Origin: Candidatus Dadabacteria bacterium
GTDB lineage: Bacteria; Desulfobacterota_D; UBA1144; Nemesobacterales; Nemesobacteraceae
Assembly (NCBI GenBank): GCA_951812735.1
Contig: OX638332.1
Coordinates: 1,062,732 to 1,126,731, forward strand
DNA length: 64,000 nucleotides
Direction of reading: 5' to 3'
The notes under the pieces were generated by a model, which saw only the letters and a program-made list of their open reading frames with translations, ran no database searches and had not been told where the DNA came from. Every line of letters starts with the position of its first letter. Positions within the stretch are counted from its first letter, which is position 1. Shown piece after piece: positions 13,773-16,375 of this stretch. The position numbers and the translations under genes were made by a program.

Positions 13773-13796
13773 AAAAGACAGGACTTCCTGTCTTTT
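13773..13796 (-). repeat. 11-bp inverted repeat across the IS110 right junction
   Basis: Arms 13773-13783 and 13786-13796 are perfectly complementary around a 2-nt centre. On the minus strand the hairpin ends in CTTTT and could stop transposase transcription. By the guide-RNA alignment the right junction core (13781-13782) lies inside it, so one arm would be flank and the other element DNA. Confidence 0.55.
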
Positions 13797-13875
13797 ATCA
13801 AGCTTAAATTTTATGTATATAGCGAATTTCTTTTTTTAAGATTTCTCCCTGGTTTTTCTTCTTTAACATTTCCTT

Positions 13876-15123
13876 CTACGTGGCATCCGGAAGAGGCTTT
13901 CTGAACTCCTTGTCAAAGAGCTCTCCTTTTTCCAGGATGACGCGGGCGACGAACAAAAGACGGTCGCACACAGTACGAACGGATCTGCAGTAACCATGAC
14001 CTTTTCCCCGAAGCTCTTCGTACCTGGCCCTGCTTACCGGATCATGCTTTACGGCTACCCCTCCCAGAACATGAAACGCGGCTGAGAGGCTCTTGCACAC
14101 AGCCCTTCGCTTTATGACCAGCTTTGTCTTGCCCGATTGTCTCGTCACCGGAGCCGTACCGCCGAGACACCGAATTGCCTCGAAGTCCCGACGGCGTACA
14201 AGGTCCCAGGCCTCGGCCACAAGCGTCGCGAGCACTACAGTCCCCACGCCCGGAATGGATCGGAGAATCTCAATATCGGTCGACCCGCCCCCCTCGGCCT
14301 TAAGCTTTTCGTTCATGGTCTCTATAATCTTATCGATAGAGTCTTTGATCTCCTTGAGCTGACGATCCGCCACCTTCAGCCGCTCAACAACCGATGTTAT
14401 ATGGAAGATGCAGCTCCGCACGGTCGCGTCGCTCACGTTTATTTCCTCGGCCCTCAGTATCTTGAGCGCCTCCTCCGCGCCAATACGCCTTACTCTGTTG
14501 CGTTTGAGAATCTTCTGCACTGTGGAGGCTCTTTTCCCCTTTGCCGCACAAGGACAAGGCATAAGCTCCCAAAGCTCCAGATGCCATGGCCTTACGGTAC
14601 TGCCGAGAAGTTCTTCAAACTGGGGGTAATACCTCCACAGCAGTGCGCGAAGACGGTTTACAAGACGCGTACGCTCCGATGTGAGCTCCTCTCTGGTTCT
14701 GTTGAACTCACGCAGAGCTATGACATCGCAGTCCTGCGGTTCGACGTAGCGGAAGTGCTTGCGGTCCGTGCGGAGCGCCGAGGCGAGAACCAAGGCGTCT
14801 TTTCTGTCATCCTTGGCTCCTGAGACGCAGAACCTGTCCCTGAAGCGGTCAAGCTGCTTCGGATTTATGGAATAAACCATAAATCCCTGTTCACAAAGAC
14901 TTTCCACCACCGGGCCTTGGTTCACCTCTATGGCCACGGCCATGTCGCAGTCCTCAGAGCCTGACACTTCCCTCATCCACTGAGACATTTCAAAAAGACC
15001 TCCTCCGGTATGCTTGAAGCTTTTTTCTCCGACGACGGAACCTTCCTGGTTGACGACGCAGACCTGGTGAGAGTTTTTCCCCCAGTCAATGCCTGCAAAA
15101 AATAGAGATTTACCATTCTTCAT
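13876..15123 (-). CDS. IS110-family DEDD transposase (bridge-RNA-guided recombinase)
   Basis: 415 residues from ATG 15123; a start at 15141 is also possible. The RuvC-like DEDD tetrad is visible: D13 (FAGIDWGKNS), E66 (AIEVN), D106 and D109 (AKDDRKDA). A coiled-coil middle follows. The C-terminal Tnp domain has LRSIPGVGTVVLATLVAE and LGGTAPVTRQSGK with the expected catalytic Ser near residue 330. The frame is intact, so the element may be active. Family knowledge: these enzymes recombine target and donor DNA held by a two-loop RNA made from the element's non-coding end. Confidence 0.95.
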   Translation of the reverse strand: MKNGKSLFFAGIDWGKNSHQVCVVNQEGSVVGEKSFKHTGGGLFEMSQWMREVSGSEDCDMAVAIEVNQGPVVESLCEQGFMVYSINPKQLDRFRDRFCVSGAKDDRKDALVLASALRTDRKHFRYVEPQDCDVIALREFNRTREELTSERTRLVNRLRALLWRYYPQFEELLGSTVRPWHLELWELMPCPCAAKGKRASTVQKILKRNRVRRIGAEEALKILRAEEINVSDATVRSCIFHITSVVERLKVADRQLKEIKDSIDKIIETMNEKLKAEGGGSTDIEILRSIPGVGTVVLATLVAEAWDLVRRRDFEAIRCLGGTAPVTRQSGKTKLVIKRRAVCKSLSAAFHVLGGVAVKHDPVSRARYEELRGKGHGYCRSVRTVCDRLLFVARVILEKGELFDKEFRKPLPDAT

Positions 15124-15149
15124 GTAAATTAATACCTTCATATGTATTC

Positions 15150-15303
15150 GGGTTTGCCGTGATGCTTGACAGAACCAGTACCGGCGCTCGATGGCGCAAA
15201 CTTCCTGTTGGGCATTTATCACGGCGCTTGACCGAGGCGCTTGTCCTGACTAGGTGCTCGATGGCACAGGTAAAATTAGGCAGCTCTCGGTCAGGCAACC
15301 TGT
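15150..15303 (-). ncRNA. Predicted IS110 bridge RNA
   Basis: Non-coding DNA upstream of the transposase folds into two similar arms. Arm 1 is closed by TGACCGAG/CTCGGTCA (15286-15293 with 15229-15236) and capped by GTGC-CATCGA-GCAC (15254-15267). Arm 2 is closed by GCCGTGAT/ATCACGGC (15218-15225 with 15156-15163) and capped by GCGC-CATCGA-GCGC (15184-15197). Both cap loops are identical while the cap stems differ but still pair. The unpaired strands hold guide-like segments that match the flanks (arm 1) and the element ends (arm 2). A TATAAT at 15310-15315 could give a 5' end near 15303. Confidence 0.8.
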
Positions 15304-15430
15304 GAATTAATTATAATTTCGATTTGATTTTTTCGCTTGATTTAAGCTTTTAGAAGGGTACTGGGTAAAATAGAAGTTCCGGGGTGATTCGGCCTCAGGA
15401 CCTGTGCTCCTCACAGTTTAGAAACAGAAA

Positions 15431-16375
15431 ATGAAGCGGAAATTTCTCGGCATAGATATAGGGGGAACCAATCTCAGGGGAAAGATCATATCCGAGGGAG
15501 GAGATGCGCTCGGGGAAAGAAAAACCCTCTCAGAGGCCCACATGGGCATCTCCAGACTCATGGAGAACCTAGCCGGTTTCATAGAAGGATTTGCCGGGGA
15601 AGAAATATCGGCAATCGGCATAGGCATACCGGGAACCGTTGACCGTCGAAACGGCACCTTAGTCCAAGCCCCGAATATAGCCAATACAAAGGATTTTCCA
15701 TTTACCGAAGCCCTTTTAGACAGAATCGGAACGAAAACCCCAGTTTTTGTTGAAAACGACGCTTCCTGCGCGGCTCTCGCAGAACACCGTGCTGGGGCGG
15801 GAAGAGGTTCAAACTCAATGGTAATGATAACCTTGGGAACCGGATTCGGAGGCGGAATAATCCTCAACGGCAGGCTCTGGTCGGGAGAAGACGGCTTCGC
15901 CGGGGAAGTGGGACACATGGCGATTGACCCGTCGGGACCCCTCTGCGCCTGCGGGGCAAGAGGCTGCGTTGAGACCTATGTTTCGCAGGTAGCGATAAAA
16001 AGAATCGTCCACGAGCACGCAGAACTCCGCGAAAAGCTCGCCGGTACAAAAAAATCGACTATCCCCGAACTCCTAGCGGAGCTTGCGCGTGAAAAAGACC
16101 GGGCGGCCATCTCCGTATGGAACGACTTCGGGACGAATCTGGGAGTGGGAATATCGATTCTCGTAAATGTTCTGGACGTAAAAACGGTGATCGTGGGCGG
16201 AGGACTCTCAGGTGCATGGGAACTTTTTATAGAGAAAACGCTTGAGGAAGCCGAAAGAAGGTGTCTTGGCGGGGCTGCCAGGGGGCTTCAGATAAAAAGA
16301 GCAGTTCTGGGAGATGACTCTGGAGTGCTTGGAGCGTGCTACATGGCTAAAAGCGGGCTTGGGGAGAGTTCCTAG
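15431..16375 (+). CDS. ROK-family sugar kinase (glucokinase-like)
   Basis: 314 residues. ROK proteins phosphorylate glucose or amino sugars with ATP, or act as repressors when they carry an HTH; no HTH is present here, so a kinase is likely. Phosphate-1 loop LGIDIGGTNLRG, GIGIPGTVDRRNG, catalytic VENDASCAALAEH, and zinc motif CACGARGCVETYVS after GHMAID are all present. It stands alone on plus DNA, just beyond the IS110 left junction, and its stop overlaps the convergent tilS stop by 4 bp. Confidence 0.9.
   Translation: MKRKFLGIDIGGTNLRGKIISEGGDALGERKTLSEAHMGISRLMENLAGFIEGFAGEEISAIGIGIPGTVDRRNGTLVQAPNIANTKDFPFTEALLDRIGTKTPVFVENDASCAALAEHRAGAGRGSNSMVMITLGTGFGGGIILNGRLWSGEDGFAGEVGHMAIDPSGPLCACGARGCVETYVSQVAIKRIVHEHAELREKLAGTKKSTIPELLAELAREKDRAAISVWNDFGTNLGVGISILVNVLDVKTVIVGGGLSGAWELFIEKTLEEAERRCLGGAARGLQIKRAVLGDDSGVLGACYMAKSGLGESS

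Follow-up and report, generated by a model that had tools for sequence, protein, structure and literature searches.

The left end of an IS110 element in the window (the whole 64,000-nucleotide stretch of Candidatus Dadabacteria DNA analysed here) almost certainly encodes an IS110-group bridge RNA. The insertion system is a known, RNA-guided one, of which this is a fresh example with unusually clear natural retargeting. The limits of the element, its empty target, the helices of the RNA, the correspondence of guides with target and donor DNA and the catalytic residues of the recombinase can all be read from sequence comparison, and it is the correspondence between guides and DNA that settles the case. 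The main components are located as follows:

13781 to 15364, minus strand: whole IS110 element (1,582 bp with the CC core counted once)
13876 to 15123, minus strand: IS110 DEDD recombinase gene (415 aa, ATG start, intact)
15146 to 15354, minus strand: bridge RNA locus (conserved in all copies, with covariation and a model match of 238 bits)

The recombinase matches Pfam families PF01548 and PF02371 (DEDD_Tnp_IS110 and Transposase_20) as well as the NCBIfam model NF033542, 'IS110 family RNA-guided transposase' (175.8 bits, cut-off 140). Its catalytic residues, as judged by sequence, are D13, E66, D106, D109 and S330-G331, placed by alignment to the IS621 (8wt6) and ISCro4 (9t56) chains with the numbering of PMC11208158; E66 was positioned by hand, a gap in the automatic alignment falling close to it. 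All copies covering the three D residues and the S retain them, and E66 is kept in all copies except the truncated L031.

The CC core of the window element lies at 15364-15363 and again at 13782-13781, the left end coming first on the minus strand, and the similarity between aligned copies drops sharply at the left boundary CCAGTACC and the right boundary GGAAGTCC (the right ends of L031 and L013, truncated or diverged there, were left out). The uninterrupted target CTATTTTACCCTGTCTTTT (recombinase strand) is found in genomes of the same genus, and insertion was therefore precise, at CC. In 12 same-genus genomes the element is absent upstream of the orthologous kinase gene; nine of these empty sites retain GACAGGGTA(A/G)AATA, L097 carries one additional change, and in L088 and L098 the flanks themselves are diverged. 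Comparison of occupied with empty sites indicates precise insertion at a dinucleotide core, with no target duplication beyond it. The left end is about 240 bp long and non-coding, and the right end extends about 93 bp past the stop codon. Subterminal inverted repeats (GCTTGAT/ATCAAGC) were rejected as a defining feature, being present in the window and missing from the left ends of L003 and L017. The insertion (window 15363-15436) lies upstream of a ROK-type sugar kinase gene starting at 15431 and interrupts a block, AAAGACAGG-GTAAAATAG, that is kept in most relatives and resembles a promoter for the kinase.

Three additional copies or pieces of the element are found in the same genome and many across the genus, the named relatives being Candidatus Dadabacteria genomes. 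The second copy in this genome (L008, 1410800-1420000) is 99% identical to the window copy and is interrupted after about codon 288 by some 6.3 kb of other DNA, in which reading of the open reading frames revealed an IS4-like transposase, a broken IS256-like gene and a pentapeptide/collagen-repeat protein; the join carries a 5-bp CCGAT repeat. A third copy (L003, 649206-650459), 58% identical, has one in-frame TGA near codon 320 of its recombinase, and its bridge RNA is nonetheless well conserved.

The first-pass annotation had described the minus strand of 15150-15303 as a complete two-arm bridge-RNA fold in an IS110 left end. Minimum free energy folding agrees on the two arms (-55 kcal/mol against -44.6 +/- 4.0 for shuffled sequences, z -2.6, with 3 of 200 shuffles as good), and the location also stands, within the element limits and upstream of a DEDD/Ser recombinase. 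The fold is not complete, since the conserved unit is longer (15146-15354) and includes a 5' stem-loop. The RNA is probably about 200 nt long and starts near 15350. Its hairpins, other than the guide-bearing loops themselves, are:

15335 to 15347, minus strand: 5' stem-loop GCTT-AAATC-AAGC, from reading of the sequence and alignment
15254 to 15267, minus strand: target-arm cap hairpin GUGC-CAUCGA-GCAC (pair 102/113 is C-G in 8 sequences and U-A in 4)
15184 to 15197, minus strand: donor-arm cap hairpin GCGC-CAUCGA-GCGC (pair 178/189 is U-A in 6 sequences and C-G in 4)

An alignment of 12 left ends from one genus (209 nt) yields a consensus of 40 pairs, made up of an outer CGGG/CCCG stem, a first arm with its cap and a second arm with its cap. 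Conserved pairing among close relatives, looked for in these 12 sequences, is evident: 97.5% of cells are paired, a figure biased upward by the derivation of the structure from the same sequences, and 10 pairs have compensatory changes on both sides; none of 500 shuffles matches these two values. Sliding the partners lowers pairing to 22-37%. The double changes are direct evidence, one example being a switch from U-A to C-G in four sequences. The 5' stem-loop has four pairs, with G-U or one broken pair in some copies, and its comparative support is weak; in the window copy a G-to-A change breaks one pair of the outer stem.

Both arms of the window copy do end in the annotated CATCGA loop, on cap stems that differ and still pair as reported (GTGC/GCAC and GCGC/GCGC), each cap being contained in a 16-nt repeat of 88% identity. 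That the two caps agree is a peculiarity of this clade, the middle of the cap varying freely within a conserved pattern GYGCC-NNN-GAGCRC, and CATCGA was discarded as a shared functional motif because it is not conserved among copies. The difference between the cap stems had also been taken for compensation, a view we do not share, as two arms of one molecule do not amount to evolutionary compensation; this is instead seen among relatives, where pairs 102/113 and 178/189 alternate between C-G and U-A in both arms. The RNA accompanies every same-genus recombinase copy that retains its left end. A covariance model built from it matches only in this genus (43 genomes of the order searched), with no match at the distant IS110 copies that other genera contribute to the set (L019 and L025, for example), and Rfam gave no match at gathering score and none credible at a relaxed E-value.

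The target-binding loop of the first arm contains the following:

15268 to 15278, minus strand: left target guide (LTG) UAAUUUUACCU, matching its own left flank
15245 to 15252, minus strand: right target guide (RTG) UAGUCAGG, complementary to target CCTGACTA
15244 to 15243, minus strand: constant AC after the RTG, candidate handshake guide for the right-end GT

To compare guides with insertion sites, we scored each against its own flank and against those of the other copies. Left guides score 7.8/10 on their own flank and 4.7/10 on others (0 of 20,000 permutations as good), with a one-base register shift permitted equally for all comparisons; the shifted register gives the match for some guides, and when no shift is allowed 0 or 1 of 20,000 permutations does as well. 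Poly-C targets are uninformative for this test, and leaving them out gives 7.7 versus 5.2 (again 0 of 20,000). Right guides score 6.1/8 on their own flank against 3.7/8 on others (0 of 20,000). Correspondence is most prominent at positions 3-9 from the core end for the left guide and 3-7 for the right. The guide and flank of L017 are the same (TATGTAATTC in both), guide CAGTTGTTCC of L015 faces flank CAGCTGTTCC, and guide TAATTTGCTTCC of L029 faces TAATTTACTTCC; examples on the right side are CCTAAAT (L012), CCATCGT (L014) and CCACTTT (L015). A single guide is associated with three independent insertions at the same motif (window, L040 and the second copy of the same genome): guide UAAUUUUACC corresponds to left flanks CTATTTTACCC, CCATTATACC and CCAATTATACC, and the guide side CCTGACTA to right flanks CCTGTCTT, CCTGATAT and CCTGACAA. 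At least seven target guides occur among copies sharing one recombinase lineage.

Solo left-end remnants that stop inside or at the left target guide occur in L065 (about 1588-1450, minus strand), L074, L078 and L079; one such remnant reads CTACCAAACCCC and then continues into foreign DNA, with left flank CCCAAACCCC. The DNA of a guide resembles half a target, and decoy recombination at it is conceivable in these few cases. Copies L016, L018 and L031, whose guides are poly-C, have poly-C runs beside them at their left flanks, and two of these copies lie near contig starts. In L081 (762-1020) and L077 (1501-1760) a left-end remnant is followed by a stretch, GGGTTGATAGG..CAGGGTGTAAGTCCCGTGAGGG, common to the two genomes, which looks like a separate conserved element and is possibly an intron-like RNA.

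The second loop corresponds to the element itself:

15200 to 15208, minus strand: left donor guide (LDG) ACAGGAAGU, identical to the element right end
15175 to 15181, minus strand: right donor guide (RDG) GUACUGG, which reverse-complements the left-end start CCAGTAC
15174 to 15173, minus strand: UU after the RDG, candidate handshake guide

The LDG follows the right end through three variants (ACAGG, GTAGG and, in L003, GTAAG), and the RDG is conserved among copies. As the first loop fits the flanks of each copy and the second fits the ends of the element, the data support the first arm as the target-binding and the second as the donor-binding one, bearing out the two-loop layout originally proposed for this sequence, with the arms in the order found in IS621 (PMC11208160). 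The first base after the RDG is U together with a target A in 4/5 insertions (target C in the rest) and A together with a target T in 6/9 (again C in the rest); this grouping into U and A tracks the relatedness of the copies, making it a lead and not a test. Both halves of the target guide may have changed repeatedly within one genus, and we tentatively entertain the idea, with somewhat more doubt than belief, that the base after the RDG co-changes with the target base adjacent to the core. If true, natural retargeting would be a simultaneous change in two separate loops.

We envisage that the element is excised as a circle in which right and left ends are joined at the CC core. The joined ends would then form a promoter from which the left end is transcribed into an RNA of about 200 nt, with the 5' stem-loop, target-binding arm and donor-binding arm in that order and both arms closed by the outer CGGG/CCCG stem. 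Once bound by the recombinase, this RNA would pair through its first loop with the two strands of a genomic target, about 14 bp long and surrounding CC, and through its second with the junction of the circular element, after which target and donor DNAs would be exchanged at CC. Once the strands are exchanged, a handshake as described in PMC11208158 could form, the invariant AC next to the RTG pairing with the donor GT and the two bases next to the RDG with the target. Reconstruction of the window circle junction places two candidate promoter boxes 17 nt apart:

15355 to 15360, minus strand: candidate -10 box TACCCT, in the left end
13796 to 13801, minus strand: candidate -35 box TTGATA, in the right end

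TTGATA-like boxes are followed at 16-17 nt by TACCNT or TACTCT in 12 reconstructed junctions, the -10 box being poor (3-4 of 6 positions). These boxes would give the joined ends a weak sigma70-like promoter directed into the RNA, as in IS621; an automated promoter scan of the integrated sequence is blind to such a junction promoter.

The choice of strand deserves scrutiny, as the same DNA folds better on the plus strand (-70.6 kcal/mol, z -5.2 versus -2.6), which does so in 11 of 12 copies and in the consensus fold (-57.8 versus -45.1). A functional RNA could then be produced from the plus strand, antisense to the recombinase leader and presenting complementary guides, and the complementarity of both loops holds on either strand. 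Folding energy accordingly does not pick the strand and was abandoned for this purpose, and G-U versus A-C changes at 37 shared helix pairs (12:8) leave it undecided. A plus-strand RNA nevertheless seems very unlikely: the reconstituted junction promoter points the other way, reading the left end in the direction of the recombinase gene, the automated scan found no promoter-like site for the plus strand in the region, and in IS621 and its orthologues it is the recombinase strand that is transcribed (PMC11208160). Guide-target mismatches of the G-U type also lean to the recombinase strand, although not significantly (9:3, p = 0.15). Assignment of the RNA to the recombinase strand is made because of the junction promoter and homology with IS621.

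The ability of both strands to fold, and the location just upstream of the recombinase start, would also suit hairpins that act at the DNA level, as a cruciform or as binding sites for the recombinase, or that attenuate the recombinase gene, with no guide RNA involved. The loops, however, vary with the insertion flanks and the right end, for which neither an attenuator nor an invariant binding site would offer any reason, and we consider this explanation highly improbable; a secondary regulatory role of the hairpins is possible. The modest z-score of the given strand might even suggest a chance fold or a host repeat unrelated to the element, an idea already refuted by a fold that lies within the element limits, is present in complete copies and covaries, and whose probability is practically nil. 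A bridge RNA encoded on the recombinase strand is thus the reading we retain.

Together, the copies described here make up a clean series of natural bridge RNAs in a phylum that has received little study, and occupied targets can be matched with empty ones. Being closely related, they lend themselves to testing what governs natural retargeting (guide length, register, wobble and handshake bases), and the enzyme is a candidate for a programmable recombinase that uses CC as its core.

All sequence features tested place the element in the IS110 group. IS621 carries its RNA in a long left end, with a 5' stem-loop, target arm and donor arm (PMC11208160, PMC11208158), and the present RNA has the same position and order. 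As is the case for IS621, the left guide (about 8-9 nt) is on the 5' side and the right guide on the 3' side with a cap hairpin between them, the first loop is more variable and the second conserved, candidate handshake dinucleotides stand behind the right guides, and a putative junction promoter accompanies a recombinase of the DEDD plus Ser type. The core is CC here and CT in IS621, and the match of the right target guide reaches about 7 nt with the core counted in, compared with 4 nt in the IS621 structure and a family range of 4-7 (PMC11208160, PMC11208158). An outer CGGG/CCCG stem closing both arms also distinguishes our RNA from that of IS621, and the recombinase is longer (415 aa versus about 326), the similarity between the two proteins being no more than marginal (phmmer E 2e-5). 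The ISCro4 transposase (PDB 9t56), of the same recombinase family, is the best sequence match among solved structures, although a weak one (32 bits). The IS1111-group/seekRNA systems (PMC11187229) likewise combine an RNA-guided DEDD recombinase and a guide RNA that the element itself encodes. IS1111 elements have their RNA in the right end and subterminal inverted repeats of 7-17 bp (PMC11208160), whereas the RNA here is in the left end, and membership of the IS1111 group was rejected on that ground.
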